64,000 nt of DNA, from contig NZ_QPIB01000008.1 of NCBI RefSeq assembly GCF_003671765.1, forward strand, positions 356,464 to 420,463, in the 5' to 3' direction. Below, piece by piece: positions 5,939-11,022 of this stretch. This DNA is from Xenophilus sp. E41. GTDB taxonomy: Bacteria; Pseudomonadota; Gammaproteobacteria; Burkholderiales; Burkholderiaceae_C. The notes under the pieces were generated by a model, which worked only from the letters and a program-made list of their open reading frames with translations, was not told the origin of the DNA and did not search any database. The position numbers and the translations under genes were made by a program. Within the stretch, counting starts at the first letter, position 1. Each line of letters opens with the position of its first letter.

Positions 5939-6298
5939 TCAAGCAGCCAGCTTGGCCTTGACCTGCTCCACGATGCCGGCGAATGCGGCCTTGTCGTGCA
6001 CGGCGATATCGGCCAGGACCTTGCGGTCGATCTCGATACCGGCCTTGCGGATGCCGTTGGCGAACTGGCTGTAGGTCAGGCCCAGTTCACGCGAGGCGGC
6101 GTTGATACGCGCGATCCACAGCTGGCGGAACACGCGCTTCTTGGTACGACGGTCACGGTAGGCGTACTGGCCTGCCTTCATCACCGCCTGCTTGGCGATG
6201 CGGAAGACATTGCCGCGACGGCCGCGGAAGCCCTTGGCGAGGGCGAGAACCTTCTTGTGGCGGGCGCGAGCGGTTACACCACGTTTGACGCGAGGCAT
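5939..6298 (-). CDS. rplT: 50S ribosomal protein L20
   Basis: A 119-residue, strongly basic protein that binds 23S rRNA early in large-subunit assembly. The start [18 protein letters not shown] and the motif [16 protein letters not shown] are diagnostic, and the length is as expected. It follows rpmI by 28 bases. In many bacteria L20 also represses its own operon by binding the leader RNA. Confidence 0.98.
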
Positions 6299-6326: not shown

Positions 6327-6530
6327 TCAAATGCCTTGGCCGGGCAGCATGGCGGCCATCGAAACCATGTTGGTCTCGTGAACCGTCACCGCACCGCGCA
6401 GGTGGCGCTTGTTCTTGGTGGTCTTCTTGGTCAGGATGTGACGCTTGAAGGCTTGACCGCGCTTGACGGTGCCACCGGGACGAACGCGAAAACGCTTCTT
6501 CGCGCTGCTCTTGGTCTTCATTTTGGGCAT
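6327..6530 (-). CDS. rpmI: 50S ribosomal protein L35
   Basis: A 67-residue basic protein beginning [16 protein letters not shown], the family signature. The start at 6530 is set by AAAGGAG seven bases upstream; the frame is open further upstream but that extension has no family resemblance. It lies between infC and rplT, the conserved IF3-L35-L20 order. Confidence 0.97.
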
Positions 6531-6695: not shown

Positions 6696-7286
6696 TCAGG
6701 CGGCCGCCGGTTCCGTCGCCGACTTGGCCGCCCCACCCGCCTTCTTGCGGCCTGGCGCGATCATCATGATCATCTGCCGGCCCTCGAGCTTGGGAAACTG
6801 CTCGACCACGATCGCGTCGCCCAGTTCGTCGCGGATGCGTTGCAGAAGCGCCAGACCCAGTTCCTGGTGCGTGATCTCACGCCCGCGAAAGCGCAGGGTG
6901 ATCTTGCACTTGTCGCCTTCGTCCAGGAAGCGCCGGATGTTGCGCATCTTGATGTTGTAGTCGCCGTCGTCGGTCCCGGGCCGGAACTTGATTTCCTTGA
7001 CCTCGATGACCTTCTGCTTCGACTTCGCTTCGGCGGCCTTCTTCTGCTCGAGAAACTTGAACTTGCCGTACTCGATCAGCCGGCAGACCGGCGGATTGGC
7101 CGCAGCCACCGTCTCGACCAGGTCCACGTCGTATTCCCCCGCAAGGCGCAAGGCCTCCTGCAGGCTGACAACGCCCAGCGCTTCGTTGTCGGGGCCGAAA
7201 AGGCGGACTTCCGGGGCCATGATTTCCCGGTTCAGGCGGTGTTGGCGTTCCTCGCGCTGGCGGCGGTCGCGAAATGCAGTAGCGAT
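6696..7286 (-). CDS. infC: Translation initiation factor IF-3, AUC start
   Basis: A 196-residue factor that binds the 30S subunit and rejects non-AUG starts. The first ATG (7220) would begin at MAPEVRLFG and cut off the conserved N-terminus. The same frame upstream encodes [18 protein letters not shown], the expected beginning of a Burkholderiales IF-3, and reaches ATC at 7284-7286, eight bases after AAAGGA. IF3 genes elsewhere (AUU in E. coli) use a rare start so that IF3 can repress its own translation. The C-terminal domain, with the [12 protein letters not shown] stretch, is intact. Confidence 0.93.
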
Positions 7287-7394: not shown

Positions 7395-9302
7395 TCAACG
7401 CTTGTGAGAGATGTCGTCGGCGATCTTTTGGGAGAACGCCTCCACCGACATTGCACCGAGGTCGATATTGCCCCGGGCGCGCACTGCGACGGCGCCGGCT
7501 TCCTTTTCCTTGTCGCCCACGACAACGATGTAAGGGAGCTTTTGCAACGAATGCTTCCGTATTTTATACGTGATCTTCTCGTTGTGCAGGTCCAGCGCCA
7601 CCCTAAACCCTTGATTCCGCAGCGTTTTCGCAACTTCGCCGGCGTAGTCGGCCTGTCCTTCGCTGATGTTGAGCACCGCCACCTGCACCGGCGCCAGCCA
7701 GGCGGGCAAGGCGCCCGCATGGTGTTCGACCAGCATGCCGATGAAGCGCTCCAGGCTGCCGACGATGGCGCGGTGGAGCATCACCGGGTGCGCACGGCCG
7801 CTCGATTCCGTCACGTAGTCCGCGCCGAGGCGCTCCGCCGTGTTGAAGTCGACCTGCATGGTGCCGCACTGCCACTGGCGGCCGATCGCATCGCGCAGCG
7901 TGTACTCGATCTTGGGACCGTAGAAGGCGCCGTCGCCGGGCGCAATGACGAAGTCCACGCCCGAACGGCGCAGCGCTTCCATCACGGCATGCTCGGCCTT
8001 GTCCCACAACTCGTCGGAGCCCACGCGGTTGTCCGGCCGCGTCGCGACCTTGTAGAGGATGTCGGTGAAGCCGAAGTCCGCATACACCTTCTGCAGTTGC
8101 GCCGTGTACGCCACGCACTCGTCGAGGATCTGATCCTCCGTGCAGAAGATGTGGCCGTCGTCCTGCGTGAAGCCGCGCACGCGCATGATTCCGTGCAGCG
8201 CGCCGCTGGGCTCGTTGCGGTGGCACTGGCCGAATTCGCCATAGCGGATCGGCAGGTCGCGGTAGCTGCGCAGGTCGTTCTTGAAGATGATCACGTGGCC
8301 CGGGCAGTTCATCGGCTTCAGCGCGTAGTCGCGCTTCTCCGACTCCGTCGTGAACATGTTCTCGCGGTAGTTCTGCCAGTGGCCCGTCTTCTCCCACAGG
8401 CTCTTGTCCAGGATCTGCGGCCCCTTCACTTCCTGGTAGCCCGTGTCGCGGTACACCTGCCGCATGTACTGCTCCACCGCCTGCCACAGCGCCCAGCCCT
8501 TCGGATGCCAGAACACCAGGCCCGGCGCCACTTCGTCGATGTGGTACAGGTCCAGTTCCTTGCCCAGCTTGCGATGGTCGCGCTTCTCGGCCTCCTCGAT
8601 GCGCTGGATGTAGGCGTCGAGCTGCTTCTTGTCCGCCCAGGCCGTGCCGTAGATGCGTTGGAGCTGCTCGTTCTTGGCGTCGCCGCGCCAGTAGGCGCCG
8701 GCCAGCTTCGTCAGCTTGAAGACCTTCAGGAAACGCGTGTTCGGCACGTGCGGTCCACGGCACATGTCCACGTATTCCTGGTGGTAGTACAGGCCCATGG
8801 CCTGCTCGTCGGGCATGTCCTCGACCAGGCGCAGCTTGTAGTCCTCGCCACGTGCCTTGAAGACCTCGATCACCTCGGCGCGGGGCGTCATCTTCTTGAC
8901 GACGTCGTAGTCCTGGGCAATCAGCTCCTTCATGCGCTGCTCGATCGCGGCCATGTCCTCGGGCGTGAAGGGGCGCTCGTAGGCGATGTCGTAGTAGAAG
9001 CCCTCGTCGATCACCGGACCGATCACCATCTTCGCCGTCGGGTACAGCTGCTTGACGGCGTGGCCGACCAGGTGGGCCGTGGAGTGGCGGATGATCTCCA
9101 GCCCCTCGTCGTCCTTGGGCGTGATGATCTGGAGCCTCGCGTCGTGGTCGATGATGTCGCTGGCATCGACGAGCCGGCCGTCCACCTTGCCGGCGACCGT
9201 CATCTTGGCGAGCCCGGGGCCGATGGACTGGGCCACGTCGGCCACCGAGACGGGGCCGGGGAACTCGCGACGCGAGTTGTCGGGGAGCGTGATCTGGATC
9301 AT
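7395..9302 (-). CDS. thrS: Threonyl-tRNA synthetase
   Basis: A 635-residue class II synthetase that charges tRNA-Thr. It has an N-terminal TGS domain (about 1-60), the editing domain with [11 protein letters not shown] (HxxxH), the catalytic core with the zinc-ligand motifs [18 protein letters not shown] and [12 protein letters not shown], and a C-terminal anticodon-binding domain from about residue 535. The length is typical. It heads the thrS-infC-rpmI-rplT block. The ribosome binding site is weak (AGG, nine bases away). A leader region upstream suggests attenuation by threonine supply. Confidence 0.98.
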
Positions 9303-9317
9303 GTGAAAACCTGGTTC

Positions 9318-9351
9318 GGAAAAACAAAAAGCGCGGCCGGGAGCCGCGCTT
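9318..9351 (-). terminator. Attenuator terminator of the thrS leader
   Basis: On the minus strand AAGCGCGGC (9343-9351) and GCCGCGCTT (9329-9337) form a perfect 9-bp stem with a 5-base loop, followed by TTTGTTTTT. It ends only 16 bases before the thrS start. The aceA gene upstream has its own terminator, so this one is best explained as part of a conditional leader. Confidence 0.85.
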
Positions 9352-9441
9352 AGCTGTGGTTCATGGGCTGGTGCGTACCAGCGTGCGCGGGCTACCGGCC
9401 CATTCCCTTCGGAAAGAGGCCGCTCGATGCGGTGCCGGTAG
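9335..9441 (-). promoter_or_regulatory. Mutually exclusive RNA pairings of the thrS attenuator
   Basis: Region 1 (minus CTACCGGC, 9434-9441) lies inside the Thr codons of the leader peptide and pairs perfectly with GCCGGTAG in region 2 (9392-9399). Region 2 in full (9385-9401, GGGCCGGTAGCCCGCGC) also pairs with region 3 (9335-9349, GCGCGGCTCCCGGCC) over 14 bp with one mismatch and one bulge. Region 3 includes the left arm of the terminator. A ribosome stalled on the Thr codons would mask region 1 and let 2:3 form, so the terminator could not. A small hairpin, GCTGGTACGCACCAGC, lies between (9367-9382). Confidence 0.8.
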
Positions 9442-9454
9442 TTCGCGGTGTCAT
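9392..9454 (-). CDS. thrS leader peptide, 20 residues, Thr-rich
   Basis: A short frame with ATG at 9454 and TAG at 9392-9394, beginning MTPRTTGT and ending FPKGMGR. Four of its first eight codons are Thr (ACA, ACT, ACC, ACC). AAAGG lies ten bases upstream of the ATG. It sits between a candidate -10 box and the terminator in front of thrS, and its Thr codons overlap region 1 of the attenuator hairpins. This arrangement matches leader peptides of amino-acid-controlled attenuators. It is too short for most gene callers. Confidence 0.82.
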
Positions 9455-9508
9455 AACCAGAGTGCCTTTCTCGCCCTTGTTGGTGTGGAATGACGGTCGA
9501 AGCGCAGG

Positions 9509-9514
9509 ATTCTA
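9509..9514 (-). promoter_or_regulatory. Candidate -10 box of the thrS operon
   Basis: TAGAAT on the minus strand lies between the aceA terminator and the leader peptide and would place the transcript start near 9502, about 48 bases before the leader ATG. The same TAGAAT hexamer precedes the genes at 15813, 26584 and 51404. No good -35 box is visible. Confidence 0.5.
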
Positions 9515-9552
9515 GCTCGCCGCTCCATGGCCCGCCCGAGACGCTCCCGCAC

Positions 9553-9577
9553 GAAAAAGCCCGGCCAGGGCCGGGCT
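9553..9577 (-). terminator. Intrinsic terminator of aceA
   Basis: On the minus strand AGCCCGGCC and GGCCGGGCT form a tight stem followed by TTTTTCG, 35 bases after the aceA stop codon. It separates aceA from the thrS transcript. Confidence 0.8.
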
Positions 9578-9611
9578 CTCGGGTCGCAGGCCGGGCGGCC
9601 CGGCAGCAGAC

Positions 9612-10943
9612 TCAGTGGAACTGCTCTTCCTCGGTCGAGCCGGTCAGCGCCTTCACGCTCGACGAGCCGCCCTGGATCACGGTGGTCACATCGTCGAAGT
9701 AGCCGGCGCCGACTTCCTGCTGGTGCGACACGAAGGTGTAGCCCTGCTCGCGAGCCGCGAACTCGGGTTCCTGCACCATTTCGACGTAGTGCTTCATGCC
9801 TTCGCCGTTGGCATAGGCATGGGCGAACTTGAAGGTGTTGTACCAGTTGACGTGGATGCCGGCCAGCGTGATGAACTGGTACTTGTAGCCCAGCGCCGAG
9901 AGCTCTTCCTGGAAGCGGGCGATGGTCTTGTCGTCCAGGTTCTTCTTCCAGTTGAACGAAGGCGAGCAGTTGTACGACAGCAGCTTGCCGGGCGACGCGG
10001 CATGCACGGCCTGCGCGAACTCGCGGGCAAAGCCGAGGTCGGGCGTGCCGGTCTCGCACCACACCAGGTCGGCATACGGCGCATAGGCCACGCCGCGGCT
10101 GATGGCCTGCTCCAGGCCGTTCTTCACGCGGTAGAAGCCTTCCTGCGTGCGCTCGCCCGTCAGGAAGGGCTTGTCGTTCGCGTCGTGGTCGGAGGTGATC
10201 AGGTTGGCTGCTTCCGCGTCGGTGCGCGCCAGCACGATGGTCGAGACACCCATGACGTCGGCCGCGAAACGGGCGGAGATCAGCTTCTCGCAGGCTTCCT
10301 GCGTCGGCACCAGCACCTTGCCGCCCATGTGGCCGCACTTCTTCACGGCCGCGAGCTGGTCCTCGAAGTGCACGCCGGCAGCGCCCGCGGCAATCATGTT
10401 CTTCATGAGTTCGAAGGCGTTCAGCACGCCGCCGAAGCCGGCCTCGGCGTCCGCCACGATCGGCAGGAAGTAGTCGATGAACTCCTTGTCGCCAGGATTC
10501 ACGCCGCGCGACCACTGGATCTCGTCGGCACGCTTGAAGGTGTTGTTGATGCGGCGGACCATCGTCGGCACCGAGTCGTACGCGTACAGCGACTGGTCAG
10601 GGTACATGGTCTCGGAGGTGTTGCCATCGGCAGCCACCTGCCAGCCCGACAGGTACACGGCTTCCAGACCCGCCTTGGCCTGCTGCATGGCCTGGCCGGC
10701 GGTGATGGCGCCGAAGGCGTTGACGTAGCCCTTCTTGGCGCCGCCGTTGATCTTCTCCCACAGCTTCTCGGCGCCGCGCTTGGCCAGCGTGTGCTCGATC
10801 GGCAGCGAGCCACGCAGGCGCACCACGTCGGCGGCGCTGTAGCCGCGCTTGATGCCCTTCCAGCGGGGGTTGGTCGCCCAGTCCTTCTCGAGGGCGGCGA
10901 TCTGCTGTTCACGGCTGAGTTGTTCGGTGATGGTCTGAGGCAT
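9612..10943 (-). CDS. aceA: Isocitrate lyase
   Basis: A 443-residue enzyme that splits isocitrate to glyoxylate and succinate, the first step of the glyoxylate shunt used on acetate and fatty acids. The catalytic KKCGHMGGK loop is present (Cys near residue 200), as are [11 protein letters not shown] and the C-terminal [16 protein letters not shown]. The start is set at ATG 10943, five bases after GGAG; a GTG two codons earlier is less likely. It is monocistronic, with its own terminator and a long AT-rich upstream region containing two dyads. Confidence 0.97.
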
Positions 10944-11022
10944 GTTCACTCCAGGGGTGCAGTTATGAAAACGGGCACGGCGCGGAACCGTTGCATCAAC
11001 TGTAGCCGAGGCATCGACTCTT

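Follow-up and report, generated by a model that had tools for sequence, protein, structure and literature searches.

Leader-peptide transcription attenuation has long been known from the pheST attenuator of Escherichia coli, with its pheM leader. In that system, as in the one proposed below for the threonyl-tRNA synthetase gene thrS, a proteobacterial aminoacyl-tRNA synthetase gene is placed under leader-peptide attenuation with control codons for the cognate amino acid, but the amino acid is phenylalanine, the bacteria are gammaproteobacteria, and the leader and its arms are different. The leader of the E. coli thr operon, thrL (Rfam RF00506), likewise uses threonine control codons and a choice between terminator and antiterminator, but it controls biosynthesis genes, it carries isoleucine codons besides those for threonine, and no Rfam match to it was obtained at the present locus. 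In E. coli, thrS itself is under translational control, as threonyl-tRNA synthetase (ThrRS) binds its own mRNA; the target gene is the same, but control is exerted through mRNA binding and translation, with neither leader peptide nor terminator. T-box leaders, too, make the transcription of synthetase genes depend on tRNA charging, but they bind the tRNA directly and are found mostly in Gram-positive bacteria; no T-box matched at Rfam gathering scores in the window (the whole stretch of 64,000 nucleotides that was analysed), nor up to E 5 in positions 9280-9560. Attenuation of synthetase operons has reportedly been surveyed by Lopatovskaya, Seliverstov and Lyubetsky in 2010 (Mol Biol 44:128), which would be a possible prior report of a leader such as the one described here.

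Attenuation of pheST is also named in the accessible part of PMC1262725. For thrS, a leader peptide with Thr codons upstream of the gene, thrL, has been reported in Streptomyces lividans TK24, according to the accessible part of PMC8079986, so the idea of a leader peptide for thrS is not new. That leader is actinobacterial, has the sequence MKRVRPFLETTPGFVPAR with two Thr residues and a leaderless start, and its termination is described by its authors as not clear (PMC8079986, same part); by eye, it has no likeness to the leaders starting with MTPRT that are discussed below. In Burkholderia cenocepacia, 82 short 5' UTRs have been described, of which two lie at genes for tRNA synthetases (BCAL3373 and BCAL3436), and the word thrS is absent from the main text as far as this source was accessible (PMC5688073); these 5' UTRs may represent a prior report of such a leader. 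The initial annotation of the locus had regarded this type of control as undescribed in this group, which agrees with a literature search in which the relevant surveys were partly out of reach: the mechanism is already known, from pheST and from the Streptomyces thrS leader, and no report of a thrS attenuator was found for this group.

Gene context

The genes thrS, infC, rpmI, rplT, pheS and pheT (NCBIfam naming) follow one another in this order on one strand, the minus strand of the window, with an isocitrate lyase gene (9612-10949) upstream of thrS. The controlled gene, thrS, lies at 7395-9302 (TIGR00418, 720.9 bits, cut-off 383.65), infC (IF-3) at 6696-7286 (TIGR00168 on 7220-6699), rpmI (L35) at 6327-6527 (TIGR00001) and rplT (L20) at 5939-6298 (TIGR01032). 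The best named matches of thrS come from Xenophilus and Variovorax, at 92-93% identity. The sequences point to a Comamonadaceae-like family for the window, and the named relatives would place the surveyed genomes in the order Burkholderiales (former Betaproteobacteria).

The apparent start codon of infC is ATC (7284-7286), 22 codons 5' of the first ATG of the frame; infC has unusual start codons elsewhere. A palindromic repeat between thrS and infC, suspected in relatives, was discarded, as nothing in the window matches its pattern.

The leader frame and its signals

Between the isocitrate lyase gene and thrS, the minus strand carries an ATG frame of 20 codons (9454-9392), in which Thr codons stand at positions 2 (ACA), 5 (ACT), 6 (ACC) and 8 (ACC). 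A Shine-Dalgarno-like sequence, GAGAAAGG (9465-9472), is located 10 nt 5' of the leader ATG, and almost all of 62 relatives carry this motif or one close to it. A short frame with a ribosome binding site 5' of the gene is therefore present at the sequence level, its translation being predicted. Further upstream, the -10 like hexamer TAGAAT (9509-9514) matches a conserved TANAAT of the relatives, which is found 44-72 nt 5' of the leader ATG in 49 of 62 cases, with 2.3 expected in shuffles (75 nt examined). A promoter scan gave no consensus promoter. The hexamer would place the transcript start near 9502, which is 5' of the leader frame.

About 40 nt around the leader start (9440-9480 and the family relatives) are near-invariant, and this includes the wobble bases of ACA, CCG and CGA. 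Within it, the block from ACAAG to the fifth codon, which reads ACAAGRGCGAGAAAGGCANNNTGGTTATGACACCGCGAACT in the window's family, is near-invariant as well. Judged from the alignment, the constancy of this block and of the first five codons exceeds what arm 1, the stems or codon sensing would need. It is possible, though rather unlikely, that the ACAAGRGCGAGAAAGGCANNNTGGTTATGACACCGCGAACT block has a regulatory role of its own, be it as a binding site for a protein or an RNA or as an invariable initiation signal by which ribosome loading is set.

Pairing arms and the terminator

Four arms can be recognized. Arm 1, CCGCGAACTACCGGC (9434-9448), lies over codons 3-7. Arm 2, GGGCCGGTAGCCCGCGC (9385-9401), overlaps the leader stop codon and has either arm 1 or arm 3 as its partner. 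Arm 3 (9335-9351) contains the left arm of the terminator, AAGCGCGGC (9351-9343), as well as the antiterminator partner of arm 2, GCGCGGCTCCCGGCC (9349-9335). Arm 4, GCCGCGCTT (9329-9337), is the right arm of the terminator according to a terminator scan and the alignment of relatives. The stem at 9351-9329 has 10 pairs and is followed by the U-tract TTTGTTTTT (9320-9328), seen in the sequence and by the terminator scan. The fold prediction extends the 1:2 stem beyond what was first stated, with the pairing of CTACCGGC (9441-9434) and GCCGGTAG (9399-9392, inside arm 2) joined by CGCG/CGCG beyond a 2x2 internal loop. The RNA from 9470 to 9318 folds at -68.1 kcal/mol, compared with -51.9 (sd 4.0) for shuffles (z -4.0). 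In 9290-9620, two terminator-like sites are found where 0.3 are expected, namely the leader's own and a second one (9572-9558) that follows the upstream isocitrate lyase gene.

Most of what the initial annotation had read at this locus stands. The 20-codon frame, its ribosome binding site and Thr codons 2, 5, 6 and 8 are all read on the minus strand, and the first arm, given there as CTACCGGC, does lie inside the Thr codons. Pairing of the second arm with either the first arm or the left arm of the terminator, over 14 bp with one mismatch and one bulge, agrees with a hand count of the 2:3 pairing. The U-tailed terminator is present at 9351-9320, but the distance of its T-run from the thrS ATG (9302) is 17 bases and not 16. 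A transcript start downstream of 9392, which had been named as evidence against the reading, is not indicated, as the conservation of TANAAT would place the start at about 9502.

Conservation of the leader

A family search covered 60 genomes, of which 36 belong to the window's family and 14 to its genus, its own genome included. A full thrS is present in 35 of the 36 family genomes, the exception (G021) being 65% complete. The core of the leader, ATGACACCGCG..AC, precedes thrS in 34 of these 35 loci, with L029 as the only one without it, so the leader is not a product of chance. Across 110 thrS loci, many of these from Pseudomonas or Xanthomonadaceae, the strict core is found in 47, among which L031 and L034 repeat L007 and L009; L016, L024 and L038 have close variants of it. 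In the window's own genome, the core occurs once at up to 3 mismatches. A 19-mer was matched at up to 2 mismatches in 55 of 399 genomes of the order, and a reversed-pattern control gave 15 matches, so weak single matches of the 19-mer may be due to chance.

After merging of the loci, 95 regex matches that are distinct over 150 nt were retained. A script identified an intrinsic terminator between leader and gene for 93 of these (in the window, the one at 9351-9320), and the two without a terminator, an unrelated match in L129 and the core-bearing L142, were set aside, leaving 93 core leaders. All 93 precede thrS, as established for 86 by a motif of the thrS N-terminus, for six by pieces fetched up to the thrS start and for L061 by its being a known thrS locus. 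The constancy of the first codons in this set is partly by construction, since the pattern and the regex required them. No NCBIfam model matches three of the leader peptides, which is a weak test for such short queries. Likewise, no Rfam family reaches its gathering score in the window.

Threonine codons behind the core

The 93 core leaders and 19 divergent ones (112 in total) were clustered to 72 non-redundant tails. Behind the Arg-Thr pair, Thr accounts for 130 of 645 residues (20.2%) in these tails, compared with 3.4% and 4.3% in the other two frames, and nucleotide shuffles of the tails gave a mean of 48.7 Thr and a maximum of 79. When the first position behind Arg-Thr is left out, 92 of 573 residues are Thr. 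No other residue is as frequent as Thr behind the core, and this holds in the leader frame alone; 14 of the 72 tails have no Thr behind Arg-Thr. The enrichment thus shows control codons cognate to the synthetase encoded downstream, as expected of an attenuator.

Alternative pairing and its covariation

The pairing of the arms was examined by an arm-swap test, in which arms are exchanged between loci and the duplex energies compared (n=49, all families, 5000 permutations). Matched arms are favoured for 1:2 (z -3.1, 6/5000), for 2:3 (z -2.1, 95/5000) and for 3:4 (z -13.1, 0/5000), and the test is not supportive for the combinations 1:3 (3034/5000), 1:4 (1000/5000) and 2:4 (623/5000) at the same n=49. 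The median of their own swaps is beaten by 26 of 49 loci for 1:2, by 26 of 49 for 2:3 and by 41 of 49 for 3:4, which indicates that the 1:2 and 2:3 effects are carried by part of the loci. Within the window's family, at two redundancy cuts (n=36 and 49), the 2:3 pairing is significant (198 and 37 of 5000) and so is 3:4, whereas 1:2 is not (540 and 744 of 5000). In the other families (n=24), the values are 184/5000 for 1:2 and 468/5000 for 2:3. Duplex energies of single sequences are at or below 5 of 100 shuffles in 17 of 93 leaders for 2:3 and in 6 of 93 for 1:2, a weak result that is, in our opinion, caused by the high GC content. Arm 2 starts at or behind the leader stop codon in 78 of 93 leaders.

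Mutually exclusive 1:2, 2:3 and 3:4 stems that covary are therefore found across families, and within the window's family this holds for 2:3 and 3:4. An alignment of relatives had been proposed in the initial annotation as a check, with Thr-rich frames and covarying stems expected; the frames, 2:3 and 3:4 came out as anticipated, and 1:2 did so across families but not inside the window's family. A lack of conserved Thr codons or of alternative pairing in relatives, which had been named as a reason to abandon the reading, was not encountered, since both are conserved.

A switch between the alternative structures was computed for 55 representatives with RNA made up to arm 3. In this part-length RNA, arm 3 is blocked to 0.49 when the RNA is naked, to 0.74 with a ribosome on Thr codon 5 and to 0.54 with a ribosome at the stop codon, and shuffled controls gave 0.65, 0.67 and 0.59, respectively (the set means of the naked and stalled controls have an sd of 0.02). 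The leader of the window shows 0.47, 0.94 and 0.64 for the same three states, a switch that none of 60 shuffles equals; 7 of the 55 representatives go the wrong way. The behaviour expected of an attenuator, in which a stall frees arm 2 and a ribosome at the stop codon masks it, is thus seen in the part-length computation, while full-length folds are mostly without a switch. At full-length equilibrium, the terminator prevails in most of the 55 leaders, whatever the state. With a stalled ribosome, its median is 0.94 (n=55; 0.82 for the window), and it falls below 0.5 in 9 of 55 leaders compared with 3.4 expected; 38 of 55 leaders are below the median of their own shuffles in this state. Because the full-length RNA of most leaders keeps its terminator even when the ribosome is stalled, a switch, if there is one, must be kinetic, and the equilibrium result would fit a capture of arm 3 by arm 2 before arm 4 exists.

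Leaders beyond the core

Another 97 thrS upstream regions were surveyed, 29 from two earlier locus sets and 68 from an additional genome sample. An in-frame Arg-Thr leader is present in 29 of the 97, where 0.70 are expected from dinucleotide shuffles, and these leaders occur in 18 of 50 families. The additional sample comprised 72 places, of which the paralogues L249 and L250, a partial match (G095) and a second match (G154) were not counted; it is biased against core leaders, as genomes with a core match were left out. For three families (f10, f35 and f47), the pattern search is the sole source of leaders. Examples of divergent leaders are MFKRTTTTRISR, MSFRTTTTGTLNQG, MAVRTTTTHP, MFRTSTTTQS and MQLNRTTTTS. 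The remaining 68 of the 97 regions have no Arg-Thr motif, and several of these run directly from tRNA-Val to the terminator. Upstream of thrS in L245, a frame reading MTTETDTFTGMSLRAHRLVVWQAP and closed by a stop codon is Thr-rich by eye and has no Arg-Thr motif, which suggests that some leaders escaped the survey.

In many families, a tRNA-Val gene lies directly 5' of thrS, often with only a terminator or a leader in between (L146, L149, L151-L158 and many of L181-L248), and the order tRNA-Val, leader, terminator, thrS is found in many families. A short likeness (CTGGTTA) had raised the idea that the leader descends from the tRNA-Val gene, but several loci have the tRNA and the leader next to each other, and the idea was therefore abandoned.

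Two further types of upstream region were observed. In L249 and L250, from two genomes of one genus, a second, divergent thrS has an upstream frame ending in ..VTTTTTTSTAT or ..FTTTTTTSTAT before a TAG codon; by eye, one difference within this run is synonymous in the Thr frame and non-synonymous in an overlapping His-rich frame. At least six loci among those listed have no leader frame (L060, L065, L067, L079, L106 and L108, from Limnohabitans, Polaromonas, Rhodoferax, Serpentinimonas and a Burkholderiales) and carry a GC-rich hairpin with a T-run just 5' of thrS, some tens of bases 3' of a -10 like hexamer.

Proposed mechanism and alternatives

The best explanation of the locus is ribosome-mediated transcription attenuation of thrS by the supply of threonyl-tRNA, to which a probability of about 0.84 is given. 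It draws on the parts seen in the sequence, their conservation, the Thr-codon enrichment, the covariation across families and the switch computed in part-length RNA. The view that the locus holds the full set of parts for such attenuation is strengthened by the conserved Thr codons and alternative pairing. RNA polymerase would start near 9502, and a ribosome would load on the 20-codon frame and translate it. When threonyl-tRNA is plentiful, the ribosome would reach the stop codon inside arm 2 and cover this arm, so that the 3:4 terminator forms and transcription actually ends before thrS. When threonyl-tRNA is short, through a lack of either threonine or ThrRS, the ribosome would wait on codon 2, 5, 6 or 8 and cover arm 1; arm 2 would then stay free and capture arm 3 kinetically, before arm 4 is made, and transcription would continue into thrS and possibly into infC and beyond. 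If no ribosome is present, 1:2 would form and termination would result. By this reading of the sequence, thrS would respond to threonine, and a shortage of charged threonine tRNA probably turns the gene on.

A leader peptide could also act by another route, such as a general sensing of translation, the action of Rho, or an arrest that is specific to the peptide and occurs at MTPRT instead of at Thr codons. MTPRT is indeed more constant than the Thr run, and the 14 of 72 leaders without further Thr would be accommodated, but this route is improbable given that the predominance of Thr behind the core is confined to the leader frame, that divergent leaders keep Arg-Thr or Thr runs and not MTP, and that an intrinsic terminator was found for 93 of 95 regex matches, one of the two misses being the unrelated match in L129. 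Binding of ThrRS to its own leader RNA, through a translational operator with an anticodon-like loop as in E. coli, would be natural for thrS, the classical case of such control there. It is the least probable of the alternatives, as a terminator stands between leader and gene and, by eye in five loci of the genus (L001-L005), the loops of the hairpin between arm 2 and the terminator vary (ACGC, ATGC, TGGC, ACGT and ACGC), with no constant anticodon-like loop among them.

Hardly more probable is a small RNA gene or a trans-acting RNA derived from the 5' UTR, with the conserved block as its seed and the frame as incidental. The near-invariance of some 40 nt around the leader start, wobble bases included, would suit a seed, and the best of the weaker Rfam matches examined to E 5 in 9280-9560 is ncS025 (Burkholderia sRNA 25), which matches 9322-9420 with 28 bits and E 0.003. 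This score is below the gathering score of 46, however, and it is the terminator and a single hairpin that support the alignment, instead of the conserved block; in addition, NcS25 sits between BCAL3007 and BCAL3008 and not at thrS, according to the accessible part of PMC10117139. For these reasons ncS025 was rejected as a homologue, and sRNA S17 of Bordetella pertussis was rejected as well, its locus being a different one in the part of PMC11722255 that was accessible. Moreover, when up to 3 mismatches are allowed, neither strand of the window's own genome has a second site for a 21-mer, a search that short seeds could escape, and the Thr enrichment is specific to the frame.

Implications

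If attenuation by threonyl-tRNA supply is true, an essential synthetase gene is under leader-peptide attenuation in many families of the order, unlike in E. coli, and the cluster infC-rpmI-rplT-pheST behind thrS may feel the threonine supply. The 93 core and 19 divergent leaders would form a data set on the joint evolution of control codons and stems. If the ACAAGRGCGAGAAAGGCANNNTGGTTATGACACCGCGAACT block is in fact a second regulatory part, the thrS leader would unite codon sensing and a further input, and would have been conserved from a common ancestor of many of the order's families onwards.
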